Origin: a virus
Virus record (IMG/VR): IMGVR_UViG_3300006919_000446
Location: 1-23,869 of that record
Length of the DNA: 23,869 nucleotides
Direction: 5' to 3' (one strand)
Part shown: positions 3,690-22,625 of the stretch, piece after piece
Layout of the letters: each line of letters starts with the position of its first letter
Numbering within the stretch: position 1 is the first letter of the stretch
Position numbers and translations under genes: made by a program
Notes under the pieces: generated by a model
The model's input: the letters and a program-made list of their open reading frames with translations, nothing else
What the model was told of the DNA's origin: nothing
The model's database searches: none

Positions 3690-3732
3690 ATCAAAAAACA
3701 TGGCTTTTAATAGTCACTAAAAAAAAGAACAC

Positions 3733-4920: not shown

Positions 4921-4960
4921 TTGGAAATAATATAAACCCAAATTCAAAAAAAAAGAAAAA

Positions 4961-5935: not shown

Positions 5936-5957
5936 GGTAGAAATTAAACACAACAAC

Positions 5958-5979
5958 GGGGGTCATTGATTTGGCCCCC
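5958..5979 (+). terminator. Stem-loop after capsid gene (weak terminator or processing hairpin)
   Basis: GGGGGTCA pairs with TGGCCCCC (8 bp with one T-G wobble) around a 6-base loop. Only a weak AATTTTAAAAA tract follows, so full termination is doubtful. It may act as an mRNA-stabilising 3' end that raises capsid yield, with read-through to the next gene. A TTG-started reading frame that would begin inside the loop was rejected for the next gene. Confidence 0.6.
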
Positions 5980-6007
5980 AATTTTAAAAACCTTTAAAAG
6001 CAAAAAA

Positions 6008-6586
6008 ATGAAAAAGATATTATTTAACCCGGACGCATACATGCATTTCAAAAATGCGTGTGACATTTCCGGCGGATTTTCTAAGTCATGCGCTTCAGGA
6101 AAAGGGGGAATCATCGCAGTTACTTTTATACAAAAAGAACATTTGACGGCGTCTTCACCTTATACATTAGACGCTGACAATATTGTGACGGCAATAAACC
6201 TTGCGAGTGGTTACCGTGGTTATAAATACGCGTTAGAAATGAATATTTCAACGTTTACCGATACATTAACACGTTCGCGTGACAACGGAACATTGTTTGC
6301 ACAACAAGCGTTGTCAATGATTTTAAATGACAATAGAGCGGCAACAAGAAACCAAGTTATGTTGTTAGCGCAAAACGATTTAATTTCAATTGTTCATTTA
6401 GCGGACGGGACTTTCGAAATGTTAGGAGCGGACAACGGTTTGACTTTAGACACGGACGAAAGAAATGCCGGTGTAACTAAGGCCGACCGAAATGGCCACA
6501 CAATCAATTTAGTGGGACAAGAAAACGAATTGGCTTACACCGTTGATTCAACTATCATTGCGGGTCTATTGATTCCGGCTTCGTAA
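6008..6586 (+). CDS. Candidate major tail tube protein / virion structural protein
   Basis: The ATG at 6008 gives 192 residues. An upstream TTG at 5966 would put the start in the hairpin loop and is rejected. The protein begins MKKILFNPDAYMHF, has a strand-rich middle (YKYALEMNISTFTDTL) and a segment GTFEMLGADNGLTLD near residues 134-148, and ends NGHTINLVGQENELAYTV. The 'y-E-v-x-G-x-dNGL' pattern followed by a beta-strand ending in an acidic or hydrophobic patch recalls tail tube or tail structural proteins of Bacteroidetes siphophages. Placement between capsid and neck genes and bracketing by two hairpins suggests high expression, as for a tube or a decoration protein. A capsid-accessory role remains possible. 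Confidence 0.5.
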   Translation: MKKILFNPDAYMHFKNACDISGGFSKSCASGKGGIIAVTFIQKEHLTASSPYTLDADNIVTAINLASGYRGYKYALEMNISTFTDTLTRSRDNGTLFAQQALSMILNDNRAATRNQVMLLAQNDLISIVHLADGTFEMLGADNGLTLDTDERNAGVTKADRNGHTINLVGQENELAYTVDSTIIAGLLIPAS

Positions 6587-6612
6587 GAATAGAAATTTGT
6601 AAAATATAAAGG

Positions 6613-6645
6613 AAAGGGCGCGCGGTTATCGTTCGCCCTTTTTTT
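6613..6645 (+). terminator. Rho-independent terminator
   Basis: AAAGGGCG (6613-6620) pairs with CGCCCTTT (6634-6641) and the T-run continues to 6645, giving an 8-bp stem and a 7-T tail. It lies 27 bases after the candidate tube gene and 17 bases before the next start. No clear promoter is seen just downstream, so partial read-through is likely. It would separate the highly expressed capsid/tube pair from the neck and portal genes. Confidence 0.75.
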
Positions 6646-6661
6646 GTTAAAAATTAAAATT

Positions 6662-6886
6662 ATGGCGTTAATAATTGACCCGGCCTTCATTGGCCACAAA
6701 GTGAAAACACAATACAATGGTTTGATTGAAGTTTGCGAAGAAAACAAAGAATTATTGTTAAATTTGGGCCACACGAATTTTTTTAAACAATCAAAAGCGA
6801 AAAAAAAGGATGCAAGTAATAACGAAGGGAATACAAAACCCGTTGTGCGTAAGCGCAAACGAAAAAGCAACGTTGGCCAATCCTAA
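6662..6886 (+). CDS. Small protein with basic tail, virion region, unknown function
   Basis: ATG at 6662 gives 74 residues; a TTG 18 bases upstream is less likely because the ATG is preceded by the usual AAAATT leader. The first 45 residues (ALIIDPAFIGHKVKTQYNGLIEVCEENKELLLNLGHTNFF) look folded. The remainder is a very Lys/Arg-rich tail (KAKKKDASNNE...VRKRKRKSNVG). I do not recognise the family. The position between tube and portal genes suggests a minor head or neck component. The last 77 bases overlap the next gene in another frame, so the basic tail may be a by-product of that overlap. Confidence 0.6.
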   Translation: MALIIDPAFIGHKVKTQYNGLIEVCEENKELLLNLGHTNFFKQSKAKKKDASNNEGNTKPVVRKRKRKSNVGQS

Positions 6887-7181
6887 CTTTTTATTGGTTT
6901 TTCGTCATAAGGTCCAAAACGACAACGTGGGCGTGGTTTTAACTAATACCAGCTCATACAACCGTTACGACCTTTTTTCTTTTACTGAAGGCACGGACGC
7001 GGTATTGAAATACACCGGTGAATATGTGTTGACAATATACGAACAAGAAAGCGCGGTGAATACTGACCCGGACAATGCAACCGGGGTTGTTCACATCGAA
7101 CAATGTATTGTTTTAAAAGAACCGTTTTTAACAAAATCAAACAATCCAACAATAACACGATACATTCATGAGTTCAGTTAA
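6810..7181 (+). CDS. Conserved neck/tail-region protein, unknown function
   Basis: A protein of 123 residues. The core (NPNFLLVFRHKVQNDNVGVVLTNT...YNRYDLFSFTEG...YTGEYVLTIYEQESAVNTDPDNATGVVHIEQC) matches a small beta-sandwich-like family I associate with Bacteroidetes phage structural regions, with the typical order N-P-x-aromatic, S-x-Y-x-R-Y, G-x-Y and YEQ-S. The ATG at 6810 lies inside the preceding gene (77-base overlap), so a few N-terminal residues could be spurious and the true start could lie further in. It overlaps the portal start by 14 bases, a sign of translational coupling. Function is unknown. Confidence 0.65.
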   Translation: MQVITKGIQNPLCVSANEKATLANPNFLLVFRHKVQNDNVGVVLTNTSSYNRYDLFSFTEGTDAVLKYTGEYVLTIYEQESAVNTDPDNATGVVHIEQCIVLKEPFLTKSNNPTITRYIHEFS

Positions 7182-9042
7182 TCAAAATCAAAATGGTGGC
7201 GTTTCTTTTACATTTTCTAAGGAAAAGAATTTGCCGCAACCAAGTGAAACGAAATACAAAAACAATGATTGGATTTCTTGGGGAAAAGACAATTTATTCG
7301 GGCAATATTTGAACACGATTTTTTACGAATCGCCTTACCAAAGTGGAATAATTCAGTCCAAAACTTTTTTTATTGCCGGCGGCGGTTATGAAATGACATT
7401 CAAGACACCGGAAGACGAAGCAAAATTCAATGAATTTTTGGCCGGAATGCCAAAGGACCACACATTGGAAGATTTAATCGACTTCAACACATTAGACGGT
7501 GAAATTTACAACGGGTTTGCAATTCGTGGCGTATGGAATAAAGGGGGCGATTTATCATTCTTGGAAGCAATCGACTTCGAAAAAATACGAACGAACGAAA
7601 AAGAAACGGAATATTACTATTCTGACGATTGGGGAACAAACAACCAAGACCCGGAAAAGACCGGTTTTAAAATTTACAAGCCATACAACCCGTTGAAGAA
7701 AGAAGGCGAGTTTTTAATTTGGTACAAATACCCGTCAAAGGAATATAGACCCGGAAAACAACGTCAAGACTTTGGATTGTACCCGAAACCAACTTATTCG
7801 GGAGGGCTTAAAGACATTGCAACGGATATTGAAATGAGTTCGTACCATTTCCATGAAATAAGCAATAATCTAAAGGCCGGGACAATTATTTATCTTGGAA
7901 GCGGAAAACCAAACCCCAAGGATCAACAAAGGTTAGAAGAACAGATAAAAAACGGTGCCACGGGTATGGAATCGGCCGGGGGTATTATAGTCATGTATGG
8001 AAAAGGCGACGACCAAAAACCGGAAATCGTAAACATGAACGGAAACGACCTTGACAAAAGGTATTTAATGACCGAAGTTGCGGTGCAGAAAAAAATAATG
8101 TTGGCCCATTCGGTTGTTTCGCCTTTAATTTTTGGCATTGCTTCCGGAACGGGTAGTCTTGGAAATACAACCGAACTTGAAAACGGTTATAATATTTTTG
8201 TAAAAACGTATGTTCGTTCGCGTCAAAAATCAATCGAAAAAATTTACAATTGGATATTTAAACATATTTTACATATTAATGCTGAAATCGAATTGATTGA
8301 AGGCGAATTGTTAGATCAAAAAGAAGAAGAAATCGAAGACGTTGTGGACAACACAATGGCGAAACATCAAAGCCATATCCGTGAAGAAGAAATAGCGGAA
8401 ATCTTCATGAAATACGGGCAAAGTGCTGAAGGTTTCAAGGTAGTGACATCGAAAGAATTGACAATCGAAGACACCTTCGAAAGTGTAACTGGGACCGAAG
8501 CGCAAATGATGAAAGACGCAATGAAACAAACATTTTATTTTGCGGAATTGTTAACCGACGCACAAATCAATTTATTGAAGTTGATTAATGAAGGCCACGA
8601 CCAAAAAAGTGCGGCCGATGCTTTGAGTTTACCAATTGAAAAAGTGGCGGAACAATACGAAATTTTGCAAGGTAAAGAGTTAATTAATAAAGACGGTTCA
8701 TTATCAAACACCGGATTGCAAGCATTGAACGCACAACCGGCAAACATTGACAAGTTCGAAATCCGTTACAAATACGATTTGCGAAGCGATGCGCCACCGT
8801 TAAAAAGCAAAGCCAAAGGCGGTAAGGGTTCAAGACCATTTTGTAAAACCCTAGAGCAATCGAATAAACTTTACACGCGTGACGAAATTAACCAAATTAC
8901 CGCGGAATTGTTAGCGTTCGGAATTGACCGCGACGTGTTCCGTTTGCGTGGTGGATGGCTACATGATAGCCGGGACGGTAGGAATTACCCATTTTGTCGT
9001 CATACGTGGCGCCAAATCGTGACATACAACCCGAATAAATAA
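7168..9042 (+). CDS. Portal protein with C-terminal Cys/His domain
   Basis: A 624-residue protein. The first ~400 residues fit a phage portal: an N-terminal section (NDWISWGKDNLFGQYLNTIFYESPYQSGIIQSK), a clip/wing part with a conserved LDGEIYNGFAIRGVW strand set, and a helix-rich stem region (LMTEVAVQKKIMLAHSVVSPLIFGI...GNTTELENGYNIFVKTYVRSRQKSIEKIYNWIF) typical of portals that load at the prohead vertex. The last ~75 residues form a separate domain: SRPFCKTL (Cys559), YTRDEIN, LRGGWLHD, and PFCRHTW (Cys610, His612), a Cys/His pattern often seen at the end of Bacteroidetes phage portals or minor head proteins. Codons 81-102 carry a 65-bp segment repeated exactly at 16938. Confidence 0.82.
   Translation: MSSVNQNQNGGVSFTFSKEKNLPQPSETKYKNNDWISWGKDNLFGQYLNTIFYESPYQSGIIQSKTFFIAGGGYEMTFKTPEDEAKFNEFLAGMPKDHTLEDLIDFNTLDGEIYNGFAIRGVWNKGGDLSFLEAIDFEKIRTNEKETEYYYSDDWGTNNQDPEKTGFKIYKPYNPLKKEGEFLIWYKYPSKEYRPGKQRQDFGLYPKPTYSGGLKDIATDIEMSSYHFHEISNNLKAGTIIYLGSGKPNPKDQQRLEEQIKNGATGMESAGGIIVMYGKGDDQKPEIVNMNGNDLDKRYLMTEVAVQKKIMLAHSVVSPLIFGIASGTGSLGNTTELENGYNIFVKTYVRSRQKSIEKIYNWIFKHILHINAEIELIEGELLDQKEEEIEDVVDNTMAKHQSHIREEEIAEIFMKYGQSAEGFKVVTSKELTIEDTFESVTGTEAQMMKDAMKQTFYFAELLTDAQINLLKLINEGHDQKSAADALSLPIEKVAEQYEILQGKELINKDGSLSNTGLQALNAQPANIDKFEIRYKYDLRSDAPPLKSKAKGGKGSRPFCKTLEQSNKLYTRDEINQITAELLAFGIDRDVFRLRGGWLHDSRDGRNYPFCRHTWRQIVTYNPNK
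7408..7472 (+). repeat. 65-bp perfect direct repeat, copy A (inside portal gene)
   Basis: Identical base for base to 16938-17002 by direct comparison. It begins at codon 81 of the portal and encodes PEDEAKFNEF then LAGMPKDHTLE. The surrounding portal sequence continues smoothly on both sides, so this looks like the original copy. Confidence 0.95.
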
Positions 9043-9076
9043 ACCCGGTTTTTGTCGTCAATTTAAAAAAGAACAA

Positions 9077-9598
9077 ATGGCCATACAATATGAATTATTA
9101 ATCGGTGTTGATGCTTTGAAGGAACTTTCATTCATTGACACGAACGTGGACGCGCATTTGGTAGCAATTGCAATACTTCGAACGCAAGACAATGAAATTG
9201 AACCGGTTTTAGGTACACCCCTTTTTAAAAAGTTATTGGCTGACGTGGCCGCGCAGAATGTTTCGGGCTATTATGAAACACTATTAAATGACTACGTTGT
9301 CAAATATTTGGTGCCATTGGTTGAAATTGCTTTGGCCCCACACTTAAATTGGGAAATTAGAAACAAAGCCGTTGGAACGTCAAGTGACGCAACAATAACG
9401 GCCGGGGACCAACGAAGTGTTTATGGTATTACGGAAACAATCAACAAAGAAGCGCAACCGTACAAAAGAAGGTTGGTTGGTTGGCTTTGCGATAATGCCG
9501 ACAATTTACCGGAATACACGGAAGGAACAACGGACAAAGAAGAAATTGCACCGGACCACGACACGGGAAGTTCACTTGATTGGGGTTTTATTGGGTAA
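9077..9598 (+). CDS. Head-tail connector-like protein (DUF6712-like)
   Basis: A 173-residue mostly helical protein directly after the portal. The segment IAILRTQDNEIEPVLGTPLFKKLLADVAA (about residues 32-60) matches the pattern of head-tail connector/adaptor families: a helix with a polar face, an E/D-P-x-LG-x-x-L turn, then a short amphipathic helix. A longer helical part follows (YYETLLNDYVVKYLVPLVEIALAPHLNWEIRNKA), with an acidic C-terminal tail. In Bacteroidetes phages I associate this kind of protein with the DUF6712 group placed after the portal. Function is inferred from position and overall shape. Start ATG 9077 follows an A-rich leader. Confidence 0.6.
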   Translation: MAIQYELLIGVDALKELSFIDTNVDAHLVAIAILRTQDNEIEPVLGTPLFKKLLADVAAQNVSGYYETLLNDYVVKYLVPLVEIALAPHLNWEIRNKAVGTSSDATITAGDQRSVYGITETINKEAQPYKRRLVGWLCDNADNLPEYTEGTTDKEEIAPDHDTGSSLDWGFIG

Positions 9599-9599
9599 A

Positions 9600-9707
9600 A
9601 TGAAAGAAGTAAGTAAAACCACATTGAAAAAGTGGAAAGAATTTAAAAACAAGGATGTTAAAAAGTCTAAATCAAATAAAAAGCGAGTTTCAAACGATCG
9701 CAAATGA
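9600..9707 (+). CDS. Possible very small basic protein (35 aa)
   Basis: An ATG begins 2 bases after the connector stop (TAAAATG) and runs for 35 residues: MKEVSKTTLKKWKEFKNKD then a lysine/arginine-rich end. It overlaps the next gene start (9655) by 53 bases in another frame. The very high Lys content is partly just AT-rich sequence. It might be a real small peptide or simply a translational bridge that couples the connector to the next gene. Nothing else supports it. Confidence 0.3.
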   Translation: MKEVSKTTLKKWKEFKNKDVKKSKSNKKRVSNDRK

Positions 9708-10863
9708 CCACCGCCAAATCAATAATTTTTGGTTCGGAAGTATTCTTGACGCGTTGAAGCGTAAGGATGCAGCTGGTAGAAGACTTTACAAATATTTAAT
9801 TGTAACTCCAACAAATACAACACAAAGCCGAAATTATACCGGCACAACTTTTTTGATTACGGTTTGCGATAGGGTTTTAAAAGGCGCTGAAGACAAAGAC
9901 GACATTTTAAGCGATTGTGTGCAAATTCTGAACGATATTTACGCAACGTTTTTTGCGGAAAGGTGGCAACAATTCGTTGATGTAGAAAGCGACGGAAATA
10001 CAACGTTATTTGTTGACGATACCATGGACGGTTTAGCCGGGGCAACAATGCAAATTCAATTGAAAATATTTTCGGAAGACAACACATGCGCGATTCCTTA
10101 TATTAACAATTCACCAATTAACCCGGACGCCCCAACAGTATGCGAAGTTGCAACAATTACGGATTCGGATGGTGTAACTACTTTTGAAGTTGCAAGCGGT
10201 GGAACGGGAGCTTGTACGGTTGCAGTTACTCAAAGCGGTATTGAATATTATAAACCAACACCTCCAAAAGGTGCTACGAGTTATGCGGTTGGCGATGGTG
10301 CTTGGAATGTTCAAAATGGAGTGTACGACTATACACCTCCAGCATATCCGCTATATCGTGCAAAACTAGATTATACACACGCGACACCCTTTCTTTGGTT
10401 AGAAAATAACAACGCTTTCGGTAATAAGGCACGTTATACTTTAAACGATGGAACTCCGTTAACAACCGTAGGCGATAACACCGTTAGACCTTATGTAATA
10501 GACCATTATACGGGTTATGGAATAACAAGTGTAATCGACGGAACGGTGGCAGATTGGGCAACACAATTAACCAACGCAACGGCTTTAAGTATTACGGTTG
10601 ATTCTGATACTTATAACGATTTTTTTCTTGGCGGTATGGATGACCATTGGACGATACTATACAACTATGATAGAAGGCGAGTTTATCAAACGCTTCCATG
10701 GGAATTATTTACTACTTTGAATACTAATGTAAGTATTTTTTCAAGTGAAACTTCTTACTCATCGTCATCTGCTCAATACATTGCAGATGGAACACCAAGA
10801 AACGCAATAGTAGCGAAAACGGCTTCGGTAGTTCAAGTTTATTATAGACAACATTACACATAA
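9655..10863 (+). CDS. Tail-terminator-like N-terminal domain fused to DUF1566-like adhesin domain
   Basis: The first ~155 residues (SLNQIKSEFQTIANDHRQINNFWFGSILDAL...FLITVCDRVLKGAEDKDDILSDCVQILNDIYATF) resemble small neck/tail-completion proteins of Bacteroidetes phages, which end in a strand such as GATMQIQLKIF followed by CAIPY, both present. The rest is foreign to that family: a linker with a carbohydrate-binding-like short motif (YYKPTPPKGATSYAVGDGAWNV near 200-222) and then about 150 residues (residues 250-402) with the look of DUF1566/Lcl-type domains (ITVDSDTYNDFFLGGMDDHW...LPWELFTTLNT...SSETSYSSSSAQYIADG). So neck and receptor-recognition parts may be joined in one chain. Base use turns more AT-rich after about 10200. 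The fusion could be real or a recombination product. Confidence 0.5.
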   Translation: MLKSLNQIKSEFQTIANDHRQINNFWFGSILDALKRKDAAGRRLYKYLIVTPTNTTQSRNYTGTTFLITVCDRVLKGAEDKDDILSDCVQILNDIYATFFAERWQQFVDVESDGNTTLFVDDTMDGLAGATMQIQLKIFSEDNTCAIPYINNSPINPDAPTVCEVATITDSDGVTTFEVASGGTGACTVAVTQSGIEYYKPTPPKGATSYAVGDGAWNVQNGVYDYTPPAYPLYRAKLDYTHATPFLWLENNNAFGNKARYTLNDGTPLTTVGDNTVRPYVIDHYTGYGITSVIDGTVADWATQLTNATALSITVDSDTYNDFFLGGMDDHWTILYNYDRRRVYQTLPWELFTTLNTNVSIFSSETSYSSSSAQYIADGTPRNAIVAKTASVVQVYYRQHYT

Positions 10864-10867
10864 AATT

Positions 10868-11110
10868 ATGAAAGCAATCGGAACAATAACAATCGAAGAG
10901 GGGTTAACACTTTTAGACCCAACTATGGAAATAGTTCGCACGTCTTATGATTGGTTTACTGATACCGTAGAGGTTGAGTGTTATTTTTCAGAAGGAAATT
11001 ATAAGCATTCGCGTACATTCGAGTTTGATAATTCAGCAAAAAAAGAGTTGACAAGCAACGACATAATTAAACTAATAACAGAACATCCAAAACTAAATAA
11101 ATTCAAATAA
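10868..11110 (+). CDS. Small tail-region protein, unknown function
   Basis: 80 residues, starting 5 bases after the preceding stop. The sequence (KAIGTITIEEGLTLLDPTMEIVRTSYDWFTDTVEVECYFSEG...SRTFEFD) alternates strands and acidic turns and ends in a short basic helix (IIKLITEHPKLNKFK). I do not recognise the family. The gene is tightly packed (1-base gap) with the next small gene, and both sit between two host-recognition genes, so an accessory role in fibre assembly is plausible but not shown. Confidence 0.6.
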   Translation: MKAIGTITIEEGLTLLDPTMEIVRTSYDWFTDTVEVECYFSEGNYKHSRTFEFDNSAKKELTSNDIIKLITEHPKLNKFK

Positions 11111-11111
11111 T

Positions 11112-11384
11112 ATGACATACGGAAAAGAACAAAGCGCGGGAAAAGGAACGTTTACAATGAACACGACGGGAGTTAAAAACATTAATTTCACGGCGGTTGA
11201 CGTACCCGCAGATGTAACAATAACGGCGTTAAAAGACAAAGACGGCAACGCCGTTTCGTTGTCCGATTATCTTTTAGCACCCGCAAGCGCTACGGGCGTA
11301 ACTTACATTCGTGCAAATGATATTCACGAATATTTCACACATATTACAACAACCGCGGGGGCGTGTACTTTAGTGTTAAAATAA
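11112..11384 (+). CDS. Small beta-rich virion-region protein, unknown function
   Basis: 90 residues with no charged helices and many Thr/Ala/Val, typical of small structural proteins: KGTFTMNTTGVKNINFTAVDVPADVTITALKD...DYLLAPASATGVTYIRANDIHEYFTHITTTAGACTLVLK. The strand-turn-strand pattern and the ending GACTLVLK suggest a small beta-sandwich, as found in baseplate or fibre-associated proteins. It directly follows the 80-residue gene and precedes the lectin-like fibre. I do not recognise a named family. Confidence 0.6.
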   Translation: MTYGKEQSAGKGTFTMNTTGVKNINFTAVDVPADVTITALKDKDGNAVSLSDYLLAPASATGVTYIRANDIHEYFTHITTTAGACTLVLK

Positions 11385-11388
11385 GACT

Positions 11389-12756
11389 ATGAAAAAGGCT
11401 TTTAAATATGGTTTCCCGCGTGTTTTACGTGGTGGCGGCTTCAATCCTTTAAACATAGACGGTTTACAATTGTATTTGAATAAAAATACTAATGTGAATA
11501 GTAAACTTGCTTTAAGTCTTAATGGCTCAACGGATGCTGTCAACATTGATAGTGTTTTAACACCTTTAGCGAGTACAACAACGGGATTTTGGGAAGTTGT
11601 TTATACACCTACAAATCTTGCGGGTGTGGTTCAATACATACTAACTTTTAGTGACACTCTTGGAACGGACGTTTTGTTTATTTATCAAGAATCAACAGGT
11701 AGAATTAAAGTAAGAAGTTTAAAAGCAAATGTTCCGCAATGGCGATTAGAAACTGATAATTCAGTTTTAACGAATAATGTCCCCGTAAAAATTGGAGTAA
11801 AAAAGACTGCAACAAATGTAGTAGTTTATATTGATGATGTTGAAGTTCCCCAAAGTTATACAGATACAACCGATTTAACTTTTTGGTTTGATTCTTCAAC
11901 TGTGGACAATGGGCGAATTTCCGCCCTTAATTATAATTCTTTAGGGGATGTTGGTTTCTTAGCTGGAACTATCCAAAACGTTAAAATTTGGAGCGATGAC
12001 ACACAAACCACTTTGGTAGCAAGTTATCTATTTAATGATGCGAATAGCCCTTACAAGGATTATGCGAATAGTTATGATGGTTCATCTATTGGAACGCCAA
12101 CGAGTGTAATCGGAACACAAACAGAAACAACCGAACCACTTGACGAGGTTTTTTCATGGATAGACCAAAGTCCAAACTCTTTTGTATTTTCACAAAATAC
12201 ACTTACACGACAACCGCAACTTGCAAGCGATGGCAATAGCATTGATTTTGATGGAACAGACGATTCTTTAGAAAATGGAACGGCAAATGTATTTAGTGGG
12301 GACTCTAGCGGAATAGTGTTTTTTAGTGGGTATAATACAGGTAACACACAAAGAATACTAAGTTCTTCAGATAATGCTGGAGCGAATGATTGGATAGGTT
12401 TTTCAGTAGTGTCCAATAAAATAGGGGTGTCTAGTGTTATTGGTGGGGTTGCGAACTTTGTGCAAGCTGATACAATTTTAGGTGTAGGTTCTTTCTTTTA
12501 TGCTTCAATACAATCTAATGGTAGCTCTTGGTCTTTTACCGTTAATGGTGTAGCAGATACTTTTACGGTTGGTGCTGGAAGTAATACAGGGGACTGGTTT
12601 GGGAGCGTTGCAAATAGGGATTCTTTAGAATTAGGCTTTGTAAAAAGAAGCACGCCTCTTTATGGTGATGCCGAAATTAACAAATTAATCTATTCCAACG
12701 ACCATACAATTGATACATCTCCAATATTAACATTCTTATCTAATCCTGACAATTAA
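11389..12756 (+). CDS. Tail fibre / receptor-binding protein with LamG/ConA-like domains
   Basis: A 455-residue protein. After a short basic N-terminus (MKKAFKYGFPRVLRGGGFNPLNIDGLQLYL) come two likely concanavalin A-like jelly-roll domains. The first covers about 40-235 and contains ISALNYNSLGDVGFLAGTIQNVKIW followed by LVASYLFNDANS and YANSYDG, a classic LamG-fold end. The second covers about 275-445, begins IDFDGTDDSLENG, and ends in ELGFVKRSTPLYGDAEINKLIYS. Such domains bind surface glycans. The start-of-chain region may attach to the tail. Base composition is more AT-rich than in the head genes, a common sign of exchange of host-range genes. Its TAA overlaps the next start (TAATG). Confidence 0.72.
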   Translation: MKKAFKYGFPRVLRGGGFNPLNIDGLQLYLNKNTNVNSKLALSLNGSTDAVNIDSVLTPLASTTTGFWEVVYTPTNLAGVVQYILTFSDTLGTDVLFIYQESTGRIKVRSLKANVPQWRLETDNSVLTNNVPVKIGVKKTATNVVVYIDDVEVPQSYTDTTDLTFWFDSSTVDNGRISALNYNSLGDVGFLAGTIQNVKIWSDDTQTTLVASYLFNDANSPYKDYANSYDGSSIGTPTSVIGTQTETTEPLDEVFSWIDQSPNSFVFSQNTLTRQPQLASDGNSIDFDGTDDSLENGTANVFSGDSSGIVFFSGYNTGNTQRILSSSDNAGANDWIGFSVVSNKIGVSSVIGGVANFVQADTILGVGSFFYASIQSNGSSWSFTVNGVADTFTVGAGSNTGDWFGSVANRDSLELGFVKRSTPLYGDAEINKLIYSNDHTIDTSPILTFLSNPDN

Positions 12757-13016
12757 TGGAAACAAAACAAATAATTCATAGCAGTTTAGGAAGTGCCGAA
12801 GCTGAGATAATAAGTTTAGAGGCTAAATGTAAACACTTGCACAAAGGAATTACAACGGTTTACACCTATGTGATTAAACATCCTACGCAAAATAAATGGG
12901 CAGTAAGATATAATACAGAGGGTAGATATTGGCAAATAATAGAAGAACATTTAAACCCTAACCAAATAGCGAATTTGGTAGATATTACGGAGGATTGGAA
13001 AAACGACGAAATATAA
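12756..13016 (+). CDS. Small protein after the fibre gene, unknown function
   Basis: 86 residues, with the start sharing a base with the fibre stop codon (TAATG), which points to coupled translation. The chain reads METKQIIHSSLGSAEAEIISLEAKCKHLHKGITTVYTYVIKHPTQNKWAVRYN and ends in an acidic WKNDEI. It is compact and has no membrane segment. Coupling to the fibre suggests a possible fibre-assembly role, but no family is recognised. Confidence 0.6.
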   Translation: METKQIIHSSLGSAEAEIISLEAKCKHLHKGITTVYTYVIKHPTQNKWAVRYNTEGRYWQIIEEHLNPNQIANLVDITEDWKNDEI

Positions 13017-13403
13017 ATGTTTACACTTTTACAGATACACGAACACACGGCGCAAGCAATGGACTTGAGTTTTAATACTAAAGACGTTGTTTACATTTTA
13101 ACACTTGTCGGCGGCGGTTTGGGTGCATGGTTTAAATTAAAAATCGAACTTTCGAAAATGGCGGCGGGTTTTGAGGTTTTGAAAGAAAACCAACTAAACG
13201 CAAGCAACGGACGAAAGGGAATGAAAAAAGAGTTAATGCAAGAATTGAAAGACCGCGAACAAATTTTACACAATCGTGTTGACCGATTACGCGACGAAAA
13301 CATAAAGTCTTACGAAAAACTCGAAAAACGTTTGGAGCAAATCGAAAACAAAAACGAACAAAGCACGCAAATGATTTTGCAAGCGATAAATAATACAAAG
13401 TAA
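13017..13403 (+). CDS. Single-TM coiled-coil protein, lysis-cassette candidate
   Basis: The start follows the preceding TAA with no gap. Of 128 residues, one hydrophobic segment (about 24-40, VVYILTLVGGGLGAWFKL) is preceded by a short polar stretch, then a long charged coiled coil follows (RKGMKKELMQELKDREQILHNRVDRLRDENIKSYEKLEKRLEQIENK). One TM plus a long coiled coil is seen in phage lysis and membrane-remodelling proteins. It precedes the endolysin by 2 bases. It could be a holin-like, spanin-like or tail-associated membrane protein; it does not show lipobox features. Confidence 0.6.
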   Translation: MFTLLQIHEHTAQAMDLSFNTKDVVYILTLVGGGLGAWFKLKIELSKMAAGFEVLKENQLNASNGRKGMKKELMQELKDREQILHNRVDRLRDENIKSYEKLEKRLEQIENKNEQSTQMILQAINNTK

Positions 13404-13405
13404 TT

Positions 13406-13855
13406 ATGTACAAATTCGGAAATCGAAGCGAAGAAAAATTGAACACGGCACACCCGGATTTAATTAAAATTATGAATTTAGCAATTACGCGAAGTCGTGT
13501 TGACTTTGGAATTTCTGAAGGCCAAAGGCCAATCGAAAGGCAAAAAGAACTTTTCGACCAAGGCAAAAGCAAAATTGACGGAATCAATAAAAAAGGAAAA
13601 CACAATTACAACCCGTCGTTGGCCGTTGATATTTACGCTTTTCATAAGGATCTAGCAACACGAAAGCGCATTGCATACGATCGCGAAACGCTTTGTTATA
13701 TTGCCGGAATCATTGTTTCATGCTCTTATGAATTGTATTTCAAAGGCGAAACAAAAAATTTGGTTCGTTGGGGTGGAAATTGGGACAAAGACGGCGTTAT
13801 TTTGAAGGATCAATCCTTCGACGATTTGCCACATTTTGAAATTTATAAACCATAA
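13406..13855 (+). CDS. Endolysin: M15-family L-Ala-D-Glu / D-Ala peptidase
   Basis: A 149-residue M15-type zinc peptidase that would cut peptidoglycan cross-peptides at the end of infection. Motifs in order: QRPIERQKELFDQGKSKIDG (about 40-59), a region that usually precedes the first metal ligand; GKHNYNPSLAVDIY with His66 and Asp75 as zinc ligands; and LPHFEI with His143 as the last ligand. The chain is the usual length for small phage M15 endolysins such as the T5 type. No signal peptide is present, so it would need a holin; the next gene encodes a candidate. Three of the window's few GATC sites lie in this gene. Confidence 0.88.
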   Translation: MYKFGNRSEEKLNTAHPDLIKIMNLAITRSRVDFGISEGQRPIERQKELFDQGKSKIDGINKKGKHNYNPSLAVDIYAFHKDLATRKRIAYDRETLCYIAGIIVSCSYELYFKGETKNLVRWGGNWDKDGVILKDQSFDDLPHFEIYKP

Positions 13856-13866
13856 AAACAAAAATT

Positions 13867-14067
13867 ATGTTTGATAGAATAATAAAAAACTACATTACAA
13901 CAATCCTTGGATTGATTTTTCTTTGTGTTGCCGTTTGGTTGTACATAAGTAAGGACCACAACGAAATCGAAGCGGGCGCGGTTGCAACAATTGGCGCAAT
14001 GTTACTTCGCACAAAAGATTCGTTAATAGGTTTACCACCGAAGGGCGGCGATGTTATCGAAAAATAA
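13867..14067 (+). CDS. Candidate holin (small membrane protein)
   Basis: 66 residues: a short basic N-terminus (MFDRIIKNY), a TM helix at about 11-28 (TTILGLIFLCVAVWLYIS), a short polar loop (KDHNEIEAG) and a weaker hydrophobic segment (AVATIGAMLLRTKD). The end LIGLPPKGGDVIEK is the kind of tail I associate with small membrane proteins next to Bacteroidetes phage endolysins. Size and position directly after the endolysin support a holin. The next gene begins 17 bases before its stop, so they are likely translated together. Confidence 0.65.
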   Translation: MFDRIIKNYITTILGLIFLCVAVWLYISKDHNEIEAGAVATIGAMLLRTKDSLIGLPPKGGDVIEK

Positions 14068-14314
14068 CATAATTATTGTTTTACTTTCCGTCGTTGTTTT
14101 GTTTCAAATTATTGGAATGTACCGACAACCGGAAACGGGCGCAAGTGCTGAAGAAGTGCGCTATTTATTAGAAAAACAAACGTTGCAATTTCACCAGCTG
14201 ACGGAAGAAATAAAACAAAATGAAGCAATTGAAACAATCCGGAAAAATGATTCTATTATGGGCGTCCATGCTTTGCGCGATTCCTTGCGTTTCGCAGTCT
14301 TTGGACACTTGTAA
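14051..14314 (+). CDS. Candidate inner-membrane spanin (Rz-like)
   Basis: 87 residues with an N-terminal TM anchor (about 6-23, NIIIVLLSVVVLFQIIGM) and a charged, helix-prone periplasmic part (ASAEEVRYLLEKQTLQFHQLTEEIKQNEAIETIRKND) that could form a coiled coil. This layout, N-in with a short coiled coil, is that of an i-spanin, which bridges the inner and outer membranes during lysis. The next gene begins inside it in another frame, as often seen for spanin pairs. The overlap with the holin candidate is 17 bases. Spanins diverge fast, so the call rests on topology and context. Confidence 0.6.
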   Translation: MLSKNNIIIVLLSVVVLFQIIGMYRQPETGASAEEVRYLLEKQTLQFHQLTEEIKQNEAIETIRKNDSIMGVHALRDSLRFAVFGHL

Positions 14315-14588
14315 AGGCGTTTGTTATACCGTGAAAATGGATTCGGCCGCAATTCATTGTATGCTAAATCAAGCGGCAAAAGATACAATTATCAAAAGCC
14401 GGGGCCGCCAAATCGAAAGCATGAAAAAGGAAAGGGCTTTGGATTCTGCATTCTTAGCCATGCAAAAAATTGAATTGACACAATATAAAGGAAAGTTGAT
14501 AAAATGCCGTAAATCGCACAAATTGACGTTTGCGGGCGGAATTGGTGTTGGTTCCGTTGTCATGTATTTCATTTCAAAACTACTTTAA
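14220..14588 (+). CDS. Candidate partner spanin: signal peptide, Cys-rich, C-terminal TM
   Basis: A 122-residue chain from ATG 14220, overlapping the i-spanin candidate by 95 bases in the +1 frame. The N-terminus (MILLWASMLCAIPCVSQS from residue 10) looks like a secretion signal; a later in-frame ATG at 14247 would start exactly there. Five Cys follow in the first half (DTCKGVCYTV...IHCM). A helical section (IESMKKERALDSAFLAMQKIE) is followed by a second hydrophobic segment at the C-terminus (about 106-121, GGIGVGSVVMYFISKLL). The signal-plus-C-terminal-TM topology resembles unimolecular spanins, but no canonical lipobox (L-[AST]-[GA]-C) is visible. It may be an o-spanin without lipid, or another lysis protein. 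Confidence 0.55.
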   Translation: MKQLKQSGKMILLWASMLCAIPCVSQSLDTCKGVCYTVKMDSAAIHCMLNQAAKDTIIKSRGRQIESMKKERALDSAFLAMQKIELTQYKGKLIKCRKSHKLTFAGGIGVGSVVMYFISKLL

Positions 14589-14614
14589 ACAATTAAATGT
14601 TGAAAAGTTCAAAT

Positions 14615-14633
14615 GGCCTTCGGGCCTTTTTTT
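14615..14633 (+). terminator. Rho-independent terminator with UUCG tetraloop
   Basis: GGCC-TTCG-GGCC with the C(UUCG)G closing pair, followed by a 7-T run. It lies 27 bases after the last lysis gene and just before a promoter, so it marks the end of the late unit. Confidence 0.85.
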
Positions 14634-14643
14634 GTGCCTTTTA

Positions 14644-14674
14644 TTTGTTGAAACGAAAATAAAAATTAACTTTG
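14644..14674 (+). promoter_or_regulatory. Bacteroidetes-type promoter (TTTG-19-TAACTTTG)
   Basis: TTTG at 14644-14647, a 19-base spacer, then TAACTTTG at 14667-14674, an exact match to the TAnnTTTG consensus for Bacteroidetes vegetative promoters. Transcription would begin near 14680 and read into the gene at 14698. The surrounding 14-mer AATTAACTTTGTGG (14664-14677) recurs at 22025-22038. Confidence 0.78.
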
Positions 14675-14697
14675 TGGAAACTTTAAAGAACAAAATT

Positions 14698-14922
14698 ATG
14701 GAACGAAAAGAACTTGCGGCCCTTTTGTGGGCTTATCGAAAAGACGAAAATTTAAAAAAAATTGAAGTGCAAAAAGCCGGGCGACTGGCGCGAATGCTGA
14801 CGGTTGAAGGTTTGGAAAATTTCATGTTGCCAAATGAAGCGCAACACGTCGGCGTCCACGGTGTCGGGGTTGGTTTTTGTATTACTTTCATTATTGAAAT
14901 ACCGGTGAAAAATGGACTTTAA
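14698..14922 (+). CDS. First gene of the replication unit, unknown function
   Basis: The ATG at 14698, 20-odd bases behind the promoter and preceded by AAAATT, gives 74 residues; a longer frame upstream would cross the terminator and is rejected. The sequence (MERKELAALLWAYRKDENLKKIEVQKAGRLARMLTVEGLENFMLPNEAQHVGVHGVGVGF) begins with a charged helix and ends in a short hydrophobic strand (FCITFIIEIPV). First position behind a strong-looking promoter suggests an early gene. No family is recognised. Confidence 0.6.
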   Translation: MERKELAALLWAYRKDENLKKIEVQKAGRLARMLTVEGLENFMLPNEAQHVGVHGVGVGFCITFIIEIPVKNGL

Positions 14923-15325
14923 TAAAATAAGGGGCTTCGTTTTGAATGGTTTTTCTTTAGACTTTGTTGTAAGGAATGTAAACGGAAGCCCGGCCAAAAT
15001 AAAACAAATTTATAACAGCATTAGAAAGGCAAATTACAACGACGGGCATAAGCGATTTAATGAACAGACAAAGCCGGATTTCGAAAACGAAATGGACTAC
15101 GCCGAACCATTGAAGCAATGGCGCCCGGAAGACCTTGACGGCGAAGAAAGAATGATTTATTTAAAAATAGTTGACAATGAAAAAGACGAAAGCTACCAAT
15201 TTAGACAAAGGGGCGTCGCGATTCGACACACGAAGCCGGGGCCAACAAACACGCGAACTTTTAGAAAAGAAAGGCATCGAAAGCCCGGACACATCAAACA
15301 TGATTCAAATTTCACCCGGTTTTAA
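14912..15325 (+). CDS. Early-region protein, unknown function (3' part overlaps another frame)
   Basis: 137 residues from ATG 14912, overlapping the previous gene by 11 bases. The N-terminal ~85 residues look like a real folded domain (FNKIRGFVLNGFSLDFVVRNVNGSPAKIKQIYNSIRKANYNDGHKRF...LKQWRPEDLDGEERMIYLKI). The last ~45 are strongly basic and of low complexity (IRHTKPGPTNTRTFRKERHRKPG), which suggests they are read out of frame from the gene at 15177. A helix-turn-helix-like region near 'SLDFVVRNVNGSPAKIKQIY' may point to DNA binding but is not certain. Either the two frames overlap by 149 bases, or a shift joins them. Confidence 0.5.
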   Translation: MDFNKIRGFVLNGFSLDFVVRNVNGSPAKIKQIYNSIRKANYNDGHKRFNEQTKPDFENEMDYAEPLKQWRPEDLDGEERMIYLKIVDNEKDESYQFRQRGVAIRHTKPGPTNTRTFRKERHRKPGHIKHDSNFTRF

Positions 15326-15404
15326 AATAGCCGGGCCAATCTTCGAAGATGAAGAACAAAAGCGAATTTGGATCGAAGAAAAAAGAAAAAAATTTAACCT
15401 TTAA
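15177..15404 (+). CDS. Small early-region protein, unknown function
   Basis: 75 residues from ATG 15177. The chain (KKTKATNLDKGASRFDTRSRGQQTRELLEKKGIESPDTSNMIQISPGFKIAGPIFEDEEQKRIWIEEKRKKFNL) has a natural balance of residues, a short helix (QQTRELLEKKGI) and an acidic-basic C-terminal helix. That makes it the likelier reading of 15177-15325, where it overlaps the preceding gene by 149 bases. If the overlap is not real, this could be the C-terminal part of the upstream protein after a +1 shift. No family is recognised. Confidence 0.5.
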   Translation: MKKTKATNLDKGASRFDTRSRGQQTRELLEKKGIESPDTSNMIQISPGFKIAGPIFEDEEQKRIWIEEKRKKFNL

Positions 15405-15415
15405 AAATTAGAACA

Positions 15416-15631
15416 ATGAATAATTTAAAACAAACAGTTAAAACGGTAACGGCGGCGGCGGGAAAATCAACAACGCAATTAGCTGAAGATTTAGGGAAAG
15501 ACCCGGCCAACCTTCGCGCAATTTTAAGAAATGGAAATCCACGCATGGAATTTTTGAAACAAGTTGCCGAAGCGTGCGAATGTGAATTGCAGTTGGTCAA
15601 CAAAATTACAAACAATAGCTACACACTTTAA
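15416..15631 (+). CDS. Small HTH DNA-binding protein (Cro/CI-like)
   Basis: 71 residues whose centre (AAGKSTTQLAEDLGKDPANLRAILRNGNPRMEFLKQVAEACECELQLV, about residues 14-60) matches the helix-turn-helix fold of Cro/CI-type regulators: a first helix ending in TQLAEDLGK, a recognition helix DPANLRAILRNG, and a following helix LKQVAEACE. It could repress or activate phage genes, and sits 9 bases before the recombination genes. No larger repressor or integrase is in view, so this alone does not show a temperate life cycle. Confidence 0.72.
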   Translation: MNNLKQTVKTVTAAAGKSTTQLAEDLGKDPANLRAILRNGNPRMEFLKQVAEACECELQLVNKITNNSYTL

Positions 15632-15640
15632 AACTAAAAA

Positions 15641-16279
15641 ATGGAACAATTAGCGAAATCAATTATTGCCGTAATGAAAGAAGTTGACGGCATCGACAAA
15701 AACACAACCGTTGGCACGGGCAAAAGTTCATACCAAGGATTGAAAGACGCGGACGTCAAAAAGGTGTTCAAAGAAGCAATGGCCAAACATGGTTTATGTA
15801 TTTTACCGCTTGACATTGACGAAACCGTCCAAACGGAAACATGGAAAGAACAAACCCAATATGGTGAAAAGTTGAAAAGGTCCGTTTTCACAAAAGTAAC
15901 ATGCCGGTATTTGTTATTGCACGAAAGCGGTGAAAGTCAGGTGTTGACTGGTTACGGCCACGGAATTGACACGGCTGACAAAGGAGCGGGAAAGGCGACG
16001 ACGTACGCATTAAAAAACCTTTTGATGTACACATTTTTGACACCATCCGGGAACATCGACGACACGGACACGGACCATTCAAACGACCATCAACCGCCGC
16101 CGGCAAATTCAACGAAGCAAACAACAACCGCAAACAAACCATGGTTGAATGAAACGAATGTGGAGCAATGGACCAATGCGTGTTCAATAATGCAACAAGG
16201 CGGAACAATCGCAGACGTGCGCAAAATATATTCAGTAAATAAGCGTGACGCGGAAAAATTAATAAATCAAAACAAATAA
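15641..16279 (+). CDS. erf: ERF-family single-strand annealing protein
   Basis: A 212-residue protein. The core matches the ERF superfamily of phage annealing proteins: KSSYQGLKDADVKKVFKEAMAKHGLCILPLDID (about 28-60), KVTCRYLLLHESGESQVLTGYGHGIDTADKGAGKATTYALKNLLMYTFLTPS (about 86-137). The segment G-x-G-x-D-x-x-DKGAGKATTYALKNLL is the family's signature. These proteins pair complementary single strands during phage recombination and repair. The C-terminal ~75 residues form a linker (NSTKQTTTANK) and a small helical domain. The SSB gene follows after 15 bases, the usual partner. Confidence 0.85.
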   Translation: MEQLAKSIIAVMKEVDGIDKNTTVGTGKSSYQGLKDADVKKVFKEAMAKHGLCILPLDIDETVQTETWKEQTQYGEKLKRSVFTKVTCRYLLLHESGESQVLTGYGHGIDTADKGAGKATTYALKNLLMYTFLTPSGNIDDTDTDHSNDHQPPPANSTKQTTTANKPWLNETNVEQWTNACSIMQQGGTIADVRKIYSVNKRDAEKLINQNK

Positions 16280-16294
16280 ATAAAAATCAAAATT

Positions 16295-16621
16295 ATGAAC
16301 AAAGTTATTTTAATTGGAAACGTAGGAAAGGACCCGGAAAGAAAGGATTTTCAAAACGGAAGTATCGCCAACTTTACATTGGCAACAAATGAAGTTTGGA
16401 AGGACCAAAACGGTGAAAAGAAGACCGCCACGGAATGGCACAACATTGTTGTAAATGGAAAGACCGTTGACGTTGTAATGTCTTACGTAAAGAAGGGTGA
16501 CAAACTCGCAATTGAAGGGAAAGTGAAGACAAGATCTTACGAAAACGAAAACGGTGAAACCCGTACTATTACTGAAATAAAGGCAACGCAAGTTGAAATG
16601 TTAACACCTAAACAAACGTAA
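16295..16621 (+). CDS. ssb: Single-stranded DNA-binding protein
   Basis: 108 residues with the full OB-fold pattern: MNKVILIGNVGKDPERKDFQNGSIANFTLATNEVWKD, then EWHNIVVNGKTVDVVMSYVKKGDKLAIEGKVKTRSYENENGETRTITEIKATQVEML. It coats single-stranded DNA during replication and recombination. The usual long linker and acidic C-terminal tip (D-D-x-P-F) that binds partner proteins in bacterial SSBs are missing; the chain ends EMLTPKQT. So it may not dock host repair enzymes, or it may depend on the phage's own partners. Next gene begins one base after its stop. Confidence 0.92.
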   Translation: MNKVILIGNVGKDPERKDFQNGSIANFTLATNEVWKDQNGEKKTATEWHNIVVNGKTVDVVMSYVKKGDKLAIEGKVKTRSYENENGETRTITEIKATQVEMLTPKQT

Positions 16622-16622
16622 A

Positions 16623-17024
16623 ATGAAAAATTTAAAAGTAGAATACCAACCCGGATTTGAAACGATAACAAAATCAATAGGAATTAAAGACGAACGCTTC
16701 GAAGAATTAAGCGACATGGCCCAAAAAGAATTTGAAAGCGGGTTCATTGATAAAGAAGGTTCATTAAGTAAGGCAATGTGCCAATTATCGGAAAAAGCCG
16801 AAACACCGGCGGAATTAATGTTTTTAATTTATGCCATCGCAATGGCATTTCAACGCGCTGAAGATGACCCCATTTTCGCATTGGGGGCGATGTTGTCCGC
16901 TCAAAAATCAAAAGGAAAAGAAGACACCGCGGAAAGCCCGGAAGACGAAGCAAAATTCAATGAATTTTTGGCCGGAATGCCAAAGGACCACACATTGGAA
17001 GAAATATTAAAATATAAAAACTAA
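16623..17024 (+). CDS. Replication-module protein with a C-terminal tail copied from the portal gene
   Basis: 133 residues. The first ~100 (VEYQPGFETITKSIGIKDERFEELSDMAQKEFESG...LSKAMCQLSEKAETPAELMFLIYAIAMAFQRAEDDPIFALGAML) are helical and look like a compact unknown protein. From residue 106 to 126 the chain is identical to portal residues 81-101, through a 65-bp exact DNA repeat, then ends after seven more residues (EILKYKN). The tail lies in the same reading phase as in the portal. The upstream section contains a short lysine-rich link (AQKSKGKEDTAES). The core family is not recognised. The position between SSB and another replication-linked protein suggests a role in replication or recombination. 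Confidence 0.7.
   Translation: MKNLKVEYQPGFETITKSIGIKDERFEELSDMAQKEFESGFIDKEGSLSKAMCQLSEKAETPAELMFLIYAIAMAFQRAEDDPIFALGAMLSAQKSKGKEDTAESPEDEAKFNEFLAGMPKDHTLEEILKYKN
16938..17002 (+). repeat. 65-bp perfect direct repeat, copy B (end of small replication-module gene)
   Basis: Identical to 7408-7472 and in the same codon phase. A nearby AAGACACCG (16921-16929) also matches the nine bases ending at 7410 of the portal. This hints that the copied segment may once have been longer, with an 11-base insert. Confidence 0.95.
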
Positions 17025-17028
17025 AATT

Positions 17029-17439
17029 ATGAACTTAGAACAATTCACCCAATTAGTGCAAGACGTACACGACGGAAACGAAAGCGCCTTGAAAGCGTAC
17101 GCAATCATTAACGATTCAATAAAACTTTTGACCAGTTGCAAGAAGGAAATCGAAGAAGCGGCAAAGAAAGAAGGGTCCACGTATGGCGCAAAAACCTTCA
17201 ACGAATACGGCTATGTTTTCGAAATGCGAAACGGTGGCCGTGTGTGGGACTTTAAACACCTTGACGAATGGCAACAAGCCAACGTCAAAAAGAAAGCAAT
17301 CGAAGAAAAATACAAAACCGCTTTCAATGCAAAGGCAAACGGCTTCAGCGGATTGAACGAAGAAACCGGCGAAATAATAGAATTACCGAAAGTTTCTTAT
17401 AAATCGGATTCATTGATTGTGAAATTTAAAAATACTTAG
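17029..17439 (+). CDS. Conserved replication-associated phage protein, unknown function
   Basis: 136 residues. Layout: N-terminal helices (FTQLVQDVHDGNESALKAYAIINDSIKLLTSCKKEIEEAAKKEG), then YGAKTFNEYGYVFEMRNGGRVWDFKHLDEWQQANVKKKAIEEKYK, and a final EETGEIIELPKVSYKSDSLIVKF. I have seen this arrangement, with NGGRxWDFK and ELPKV-YK-DSLIVK, in phage proteins next to annealing proteins and SSBs, often in Bacteroidetes phages. The early coiled coil and the position suggest an accessory of the recombination system, perhaps akin to Gam-like nuclease inhibitors in place but not clearly in sequence. Confidence 0.65.
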   Translation: MNLEQFTQLVQDVHDGNESALKAYAIINDSIKLLTSCKKEIEEAAKKEGSTYGAKTFNEYGYVFEMRNGGRVWDFKHLDEWQQANVKKKAIEEKYKTAFNAKANGFSGLNEETGEIIELPKVSYKSDSLIVKFKNT

Positions 17440-17562: not shown

Positions 17563-17814
17563 ATGAAATTAATACAAAGCCATTTGACCTGTCATGATTT
17601 TCAATTCAAGTTTGATGAAATGGAAATACAAGGCATTGCATACGCTCCAAACGCTTGCAGTCTTAATATTGAAATAGACCCGGAAGGATACGTCATTTTA
17701 TCATTTGAAGAATTAGGGCAATTGATAGAGGGGTTGTCCGATTCTTACGAAAGAATGAAAAACGAACGAAGTAAATTTTCAATATTTAAAAAAGAAGGGG
17801 GGCAAAATGTATAA
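17563..17814 (+). CDS. Small protein before the replication initiator, unknown function
   Basis: 83 residues, ATG 17563, 20 bases after the terminator T-run. The sequence (KLIQSHLTCHDFQFKFDEMEIQGIAYAPNACSLNIEIDPEGYVILSFEELGQLIEGLSDSYERMKNERSKF) starts with strands and ends in a charged helix. It overlaps the next start by 8 bases, so the two are probably coupled. No family is recognised. Confidence 0.6.
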   Translation: MKLIQSHLTCHDFQFKFDEMEIQGIAYAPNACSLNIEIDPEGYVILSFEELGQLIEGLSDSYERMKNERSKFSIFKKEGGQNV

Positions 17815-18451: not shown

Positions 18452-18472
18452 AAATTTTAAATTTACAAGCAA

Positions 18473-20284: not shown

Positions 20285-20295
20285 AAATTAAAACT

Positions 20296-20508: not shown

Positions 20509-20511
20509 GTT

Positions 20512-20952
20512 ATGTTGTTAGACCTATCAAACCCAATGGACCGCGAAAAGGCCCGCACCTACCTTTCGAAATTAGAAGACGAAGGCGCCAAAATCGAATT
20601 GACAAAAAAGAATCAAAAAAGAACCGTGCGCCAAAACGCATATTTGCACGCCATTTTTTCTTTGTTCGGAATCGAATTTGGATATTCAAAACATGAAGTA
20701 AAACAATTAATTTTCAAACGTGAAGTGAACCGGGACATGTTCGAAATTGACTTCATCAACAAAGAAACCGGCGAAGTTACAACCGATTATCAAAGCACCG
20801 CCGACATGGACACGGCCACCATGACCCAATCAATTGAACGGTTTCGCAACTATTCAGCTGGTCACGGTTTGTACATTCCGACGTCGGAAGAATACATCGA
20901 AAATAAATTCTACATTGACCAACAAATTGAACAAAATAAAAAATACTTGTAA
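20512..20952 (+). CDS. ninB: NinB-like recombination protein
   Basis: 146 residues. The middle reads KKNQKRTVRQNAYLHAIFSLFGIEFGYSKHEVKQLIFKREVN (about 32-73), matching the NinB/YbcN family, in which a 'K-R-T-x-x-QN-x-x-LH' helix and a following helix carry the fold. The end of the chain, ADMDTATMTQSIERFRNYSAGHGLYIPTSEEY, is also typical. In lambda NinB assists RecF-like recombination and binds single-stranded DNA. It precedes a nuclease and NinG, so the three form a recombination block. The gene symbol is given by family likeness, not by search. Confidence 0.72.
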   Translation: MLLDLSNPMDREKARTYLSKLEDEGAKIELTKKNQKRTVRQNAYLHAIFSLFGIEFGYSKHEVKQLIFKREVNRDMFEIDFINKETGEVTTDYQSTADMDTATMTQSIERFRNYSAGHGLYIPTSEEYIENKFYIDQQIEQNKKYL

Positions 20953-20953
20953 C

Positions 20954-21463
20954 ATGAAAGCAACCTTCACAACACCAATTCCGCAATGGATGAACGACAC
21001 CGCCGAAGTAATTGGCAAAGCCCGAATGGAATCAAACACGTTCGCAAGAAATAACAACAAAGCATTTGACGCCCCGGACAATTACCGAATTGATGTTCGG
21101 GGTGCGTTGGCTGAATTAGTTGTGTTTCATATTTTCGATTCAAACGGTTGGGAATATTGGAGCGCGCCAATGGTTGAAACAAAACCACAACCGGGTCCGG
21201 ACTTAATCTTCAGAACTTCAAAAATTGACATCAAAGGCATAATGCCAAAAAGTCAAAATTTTTACGTCACCAAATCAAAGGCCGACAAGAACAAAGAATT
21301 GACCCATTATTTTTTTGTATCAATTCAAGACGACCACGCCTTCGTTTATTCCTTCACCGCAAAAGAGGTTTTGACGTGGGACGTGTACACATTCAAAAAT
21401 GGAAATGAAGCATATTACCGGCCAATTGTAAAAATCAACACCGATGAAGAAAAAGAAATGTAA
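20954..21463 (+). CDS. PD-(D/E)XK-type nuclease candidate
   Basis: ATG at 20954 (one base after the preceding stop) gives 169 residues; a longer upstream frame overlaps NinB and is rejected. A helix with GALAELVVFHIF (Glu54), then PQPGPDLIF (Asp83) and KIDIKGI (Asp92, Lys94) form the classic E...PD...DxK core of PD-(D/E)XK nucleases. The C-terminal part (FVSIQDDHAFVYSFTAKEVLTW) looks like the flanking strands. It may act as a resolvase, a DNA-trimming enzyme or a self-defence nuclease. Between NinB and NinG and overlapping the latter by 20 bases, it probably belongs to phage recombination. Confidence 0.68.
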   Translation: MKATFTTPIPQWMNDTAEVIGKARMESNTFARNNNKAFDAPDNYRIDVRGALAELVVFHIFDSNGWEYWSAPMVETKPQPGPDLIFRTSKIDIKGIMPKSQNFYVTKSKADKNKELTHYFFVSIQDDHAFVYSFTAKEVLTWDVYTFKNGNEAYYRPIVKINTDEEKEM

Positions 21464-21998
21464 ACAATGCAAACAACCTTTCACACCTTTGTACAGTTCT
21501 TTGCAAGCCGTTTGCGGGGTTAATTGTAGCATCGTAATGTCTAAGGTCAAAGAAGAAAAGAAACGCGCTAAAATCGCTTTAAAACAACGCAAGGAATTGA
21601 AAGAACAAAAAGAAGCATTAAAAACCGTTCAACAATTAGCCAACGAAGCACAACACGCATTCAATGCATTCATAAGACAACGCGACGCCGGAAAGCCTTG
21701 TATAAGTTGCGACAAACCCGACAACGGAAGCCGGAACGCTTCGCACTATTACAACGCAAACAATCATTGGGGTTTAAGATTTGATGAAAACAATGTGCAT
21801 GCAAGTTGTATCGAATGCAATAAATCGAAACACGGAAATTTAATTGAGTACAGGAAACGACTGGTTCAAAAGTTTGGTGAAGATTACGTCAAAGACCTTG
21901 ACAACCGGGCGCATGAAACGGCAAAGTACACCCGTGAAGAACTTTACAAAATCAAATTTTTATACAAAGAAAAATTAAAAATGTTAAAAAAAAGATAA
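21444..21998 (+). CDS. ninG: NinG/Rap-like recombination endonuclease
   Basis: 184 residues. The N-terminal zinc-ribbon-like part has Cys6, Cys9, Cys24 and Cys28 (KKCKQCKQPFTPLYSSLQAVCGVNC). A lysine-rich helix follows (about 35-75). Then comes the Cys/His region KPCISCDKP (Cys86, Cys89), ASHYYN (His101), LRFDENNVHASCIECNKSKHGN (His119, Cys122, Cys125), which is the signature of lambda NinG (Rap), a structure-specific nuclease that cuts branched recombination intermediates. The last part is helical. The start at 21444 lies 20 bases inside the nuclease gene. This family completes the NinB-nuclease-NinG block. Confidence 0.85.
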   Translation: MKKKKCKQCKQPFTPLYSSLQAVCGVNCSIVMSKVKEEKKRAKIALKQRKELKEQKEALKTVQQLANEAQHAFNAFIRQRDAGKPCISCDKPDNGSRNASHYYNANNHWGLRFDENNVHASCIECNKSKHGNLIEYRKRLVQKFGEDYVKDLDNRAHETAKYTREELYKIKFLYKEKLKMLKKR

Positions 21999-22006
21999 AT
22001 AAAACA

Positions 22007-22035
22007 TTGCGGAATGAAACTTCTAATTAACTTTG
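22007..22035 (+). promoter_or_regulatory. Second Bacteroidetes-type promoter (TTG-18-TAACTTTG)
   Basis: TTG at 22007-22009, 18 bases, then TAACTTTG at 22028-22035. The 14-mer AATTAACTTTGTGG around it is identical to that at 14664-14677. It would drive the gene at 22067 and possibly genes beyond it, with a start site near 22041. Confidence 0.75.
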
Positions 22036-22614: not shown

Positions 22615-22625
22615 AAAAATAATTA

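Follow-up and report, generated by a model that had tools for sequence, protein, structure and literature searches.

Illegitimate recombination makes phage genomes mosaic, usually through the swapping of whole genes or domains between phages. In bacteria a short single strand can be joined at two microhomologies, a process called short-patch double illegitimate recombination (SPDIR) and described for transformed or cellular chromosomes. Templated mutations are known in phage T4, where they are attributed to a polymerase copying an imperfect repeat elsewhere and then returning (Schultz, Carver and Drake 2006, reviewed in PMC3016281). The phage-type annealing proteins RecET and Red usually take part in phage or plasmid exchange; for RecET, recombination over 5-13 bp of homology is cited (PMC2327257).

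The window analysed here is the 23,869-bp IMG/VR virus record IMGVR_UViG_3300006919_000446 (positions 1-23,869). No DNA-level similarity to it was found among cultured phages. In this genome a 57-bp piece of the portal gene has, in our judgement probably, entered a small gene recently by microhomology-guided templated insertion (Table 1). The event resembles the T4 templated mutations in being a short ectopic copy within the same genome, with a donor left unchanged and, putatively, short shared words at the switch points, and the identical donor elsewhere in the genome that such a mutation calls for is present (65 of 65 bases). In T4, however, imperfect repeats are corrected mutually and mutants served to test the enzymes, whereas here a putative 57-bp net insertion is read from one sequence. 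As with RecET and Red, a phage-type annealing protein is at hand, an ERF relative encoded by this phage, which may have helped in the event. The same protein could serve a SPDIR-like route; the likeness to SPDIR lies in a short single strand and two microhomologies, the difference in a phage with an annealing protein of its own. Phage mosaicism likewise joins unrelated coding sequences into a composite gene, but here only 19 codons are concerned, and within one genome.

Table 1. Positions of the repeat copies, the putative insertion and the genes discussed in the text (window coordinates).
Feature	Position	Strand	Basis
Portal gene, 624 aa, likely donor of the copied segment	7168..9042	+	phrog_11226, E 6.9e-27; relatives; AF2 model
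Possible extra pairing (weak), AAGACACCG	16921..16929; also 7402-7410	+	about 1% by chance
First 65-bp copy of the repeat, encoding portal residues 81-101 plus part of 102	7408..7472	+	sequence identity
GGAAGA word, 5' end of donor segment (CCGGAAGA from 7408)	7410..7415	+	sequence
Putative 57-bp donor tract, 19 codons	7416..7472	+	end words
GGAAGA word, 3' end of donor segment	7467..7472	+	sequence
ERF-like single-strand annealing protein, possible helper	15641..16279	+	phrog_155, E 3.8e-22
Single-strand DNA-binding protein (SSB)	16295..16621	+	phrog_44, E 9.4e-42
Small gene, 133 aa, putative recipient, without detectable relatives	16623..17024	+	coding signal in frame
Second 65-bp copy of the repeat, encoding small-protein residues 106-126 plus part of 127	16938..17002	+	sequence identity
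GGAAGA word, putative original insertion site (CCGGAAGA from 16938)	16940..16945	+	sequence
Putative in-frame insertion of 57 bp, up to and including the second GGAAGA	16946..17002	+	removal leaves a 114-aa frame, stop unchanged
NinB/Orf recombination mediator	20512..20952	+	phrog_72, E 9.5e-17
NinG/Rap recombination endonuclease	21444..21998	+	PF05766, E 1.4e-44

The same phage is represented by one further IMG/VR record, L003, which is 100% identical to the window across 5754 bp. Its positions 1-7624 correspond to window 18116-23869 plus about 1.9 kb past the window end, and it covers neither repeat copy because it begins at window position 18116. By eye, the extra 1.9 kb seems to encode small and large terminase subunits. 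Close to the window end lies a possible sigma-factor-like gene (22631-23251; Sigma70_r2, E 0.03), and the annotations of P12024L and P12024S also place a sigma-70 region 2 gene shortly upstream of terminase.

The two repeat copies are identical at all 65 bases, third codon positions included, and lie in direct orientation, as the initial annotation had reported. When the window was simulated 60 times with an order-5 Markov model, the longest exact repeat averaged 16 bp and never exceeded 21 bp, and the second-longest real repeat within the window measures 19 bp; a chance origin of the 65-bp repeat is thereby excluded. The two copies share one codon phase (PEDEAKFNEFLAGMPKDHTLE), again in agreement with the initial annotation, but two of the three reading frames of the 65-mer are open, so that the shared phase alone amounts to a coincidence of about one in two. 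With 0 differences in 65 positions, the rule of three sets a 95% upper bound of about 4.6% on the divergence between the copies. The copying event is thus recent, unless the copies are held identical, and the earlier proposal of a recent copy at the DNA level is borne out by identity that includes third positions and lies beyond chance. The exact 65-mer had no match in the other viral contigs of the collection searched. A diversity-generating retroelement was considered and rejected, as its template and variable repeats should differ at adenines and the 65 bp contain no mismatch; no reverse transcriptase was found among the ORFs scanned.

The extent of the copied piece is indicated by the ends of the repeat. 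Its layout is CC-GGAAGA-...-ATT-GGAAGA, the first 8 bp being CCGGAAGA. The word GGAAGA, overlooked at first, thus occupies repeat positions 3-8 and 60-65, and the two occurrences are spaced 57 bp, or 19 codons, apart. Because the repeat begins with CCGGAAGA and ends with GGAAGA, the copy in the small gene is best read as a 57-bp in-frame insertion at one GGAAGA. Recurrence of the last 6 bases within the first 10 was seen in 0.33% of 16171 background 65-mers from the genes of this phage, and in frame in 0.12%; this statistic is supportive, not conclusive, because the words were noticed after the fact. When the 57 bp are removed, the small gene retains an open frame of 114 aa with its stop codon unchanged and a C-terminal end ESPEEILKYKN (KEDTAESPEEILKYKN). 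The putative ancestral context, GAAAGCCCGGA, has two further occurrences in the window, and it is natural for this phage since GAAAGCCCGG is found again at 15279 and 20383. The searches yielded neither a pre-insertion allele nor any small-gene relative, and the ancestral insertion site is therefore putative.

Two earlier statements need amending. The repeat had been described as forming the final 28 residues of the small protein; it does supply 21 of these, but the seven at the very end (EILKYKN) follow it. The copied piece had also been thought perhaps longer, on account of the nearby shared word AAGACACCG. In the portal gene this word overlaps the repeat, while in the small gene its register is off by 11 bp and its frame is different, and a match of at least 9 bases between two random 40-bp stretches of the window arises with a chance of about 1%. 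For these reasons it is no proof of a longer tract, and the evidence favours the shorter, 57-bp insertion.

The small gene lies between the SSB gene and a gene at 17029 and shows a clear coding signal in its frame. No relatives of it were detected by 8-mer peptide scans, by tblastn in phages and plasmids, in profile libraries and the PDB, or among 47 related records and the ORFs of the loci used for comparison, and an AF2 model from the lone sequence was uninformative (pLDDT 54). Three other phages (L098/L111, L112 and L113) carry ERF and, after it, a homologue of the 17029 gene, with no small-gene relative in between. By these comparisons the small gene is an accessory gene without detectable kin. 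The start regions of the neighbouring SSB and 17029 genes (16275-16300 and 17009-17034) are 85% identical over 26 bp, comprising an AT-rich leader and ATGAAC, and probably share a translation-start motif. Further downstream, window 17807-18451 encodes a weakly replication-O-like protein (phrog_345, E 7.7e-5) with an unbroken run of 11 glutamates.

As the record is a metagenome contig in which neither copy is covered by a second record, one repeat copy could be absent from the phage itself and result from assembly or library construction. The putative junction words, however, are 6-8 bp long, far under any assembler overlap, so that the insert cannot have come from a k-mer join. The portal gene is also continuous across its own copy when compared with relatives, and even if two genomes had been misjoined at the repeat, the repeat would have to stand beside the small gene. 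Misassembly is therefore unlikely.

By profile and by fold, the product of the gene at 7168-9042 is an HK97-fold phage portal, its AF2 model matching the solved portals of phage 812, HK97 and lambda in Foldseek. From viral contigs 80 relatives were kept, with 20-32% identity over the alignment; no match was obtained when bacterial genomes were scanned with the portal as query. In the model the repeat-encoded part starts as a helix (residues 81-93), runs through a loop and stops after one turn of the next helix (100-114), with pLDDT 89-96; the copied segment is thus a confidently predicted helix and loop in the N-terminal domain of the portal. Elsewhere in the protein, residues 468-522 (window 8569-8733) form a winged-helix-like stretch matching PF24409 (E 1.9e-5, just below the curated cut-off), a domain unusual for a portal, and the C-terminal region (window 8750-9042; FCKTL...GGW...CRHTW) is common to the P12024L portal and lies outside the portal fold.

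The direction of copying was judged from the portal side. In 82 relatives, partly redundant and aligned without the window sequence, 26-46 residues, mostly 30, separate a conserved glycine from a conserved aspartate. The portal of the window has 36 residues between these anchors and would have 17, below every relative, without the copied 19. Its frame is continuous on both sides of the repeat in portal homologues, and deletion of the full 65 bp from the portal gene would lead to truncation after 89 residues. In length and continuity the segment agrees with the 82 relatives, as expected of a donor unchanged in place. Similarity of the repeat peptide to its counterparts in the relatives was weak in an unbiased test (rank 656 of 6369 with close relatives), and the direction consequently rests on length, continuity and structure. 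A profile-column test, in which the repeat peptide came first against portal columns, was dropped because the alignment had been built with the window included. Since length, continuity with relatives and structure all fit, the portal is likely the native home of the segment and its gene the likely donor, as had been proposed at the outset. The reverse, a segment native to the small gene that replaced or was inserted into a variable helix of the portal, would accord with the variability of this stretch among relatives and with the weak peptide match. It is nevertheless quite unlikely, in view of the 17-residue remainder, the truncation at 89 residues and a small gene that is accessory and missing between ERF and the 17029 gene in the three other phages.

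If the portal gene is the donor, the tail acquired by the small protein may have been selected, for example to mimic or contact partners of the portal, and the identity kept by selection or by repeated conversion. The insertion is in frame and encodes what is modelled as a folded helix-loop in the portal. An in-frame result, however, is expected one time in three by chance, and neither a family nor a fold nor a relative speaks for a function. Moreover, selection is unnecessary to explain the repeat, because selection at the protein level ignores synonymous positions, which would not stay identical under it. We regard selection of the tail as very unlikely, and the same low probability attaches to the idea that a portal-derived docking or decoy tail marks the one-step origin of a regulator or assembly factor acting on the portal or its partners. 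The new tail is presumably neutral or merely tolerated. Just as unlikely is a donor outside this genome, in which the portal gene of a near-identical phage present through co-infection would take the place of the phage's own copy: co-infection is common and the outcome would look alike, but the segment occurs in no other record of the collection searched, and the additional participant is unnecessary. That the repeat is a cis-acting DNA or RNA element present twice has negligible probability: the 65-mer does contain a short dyad (TTTGGC-N6-GCCAAA), but it folds no better than its shuffles (z -0.86), it is present in two copies only, both within genes, and the true cis-repeat of equal length described below is intergenic and strongly palindromic.

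A templated insertion from the portal gene could have proceeded as follows while the phage was replicating or recombining. In the small gene, a strand that ended in (CC)GGAAGA would pair with the 8 bp of CCGGAAGA in the portal gene, and 57 bp of the latter would be copied up to the next GGAAGA. The strand would then return by pairing with the single GGAAGA (6 bp) of the small gene, where synthesis would resume. The product would be an in-frame insertion seven codons before the unchanged stop. Annealing of a short single strand at its two ends is an alternative route that would yield the same product, and the ERF, SSB, NinB and NinG proteins of this phage could assist either. Template switching or ERF-type annealing, both named as possible causes in the initial annotation, are plausible given the end words and these four genes; we infer the ancestral recipient sequence, the copying route and the enzymes involved.

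A comparison set of 110 further loci (about 1.2 Mb with some redundancy, lambda and P12024S included) contained no exact repeat of at least 44 bp joining two unrelated genes. The sole exact repeat of that length among them, in locus L110, is a palindromic 65-bp direct repeat (919-983 and 1717-1781) located between genes; it probably serves another phage as a regulatory or terminator element. Gene-to-gene copying of this sort is thus rare in this 110-locus set, and the kind of mutation is already known. The locus is an unusually clear case of a known mutation class, not a new system, and an unusually clean natural snapshot of intragenomic templated insertion, in which donor, recipient, putative junction words and frame are all legible. 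A pre-insertion allele in the same population, if found, would make the rate, the mechanism and any role of the annealing protein directly testable. The case illustrates a way in which a phage could equip an unrelated protein, at one stroke, with a structured peptide that already exists.
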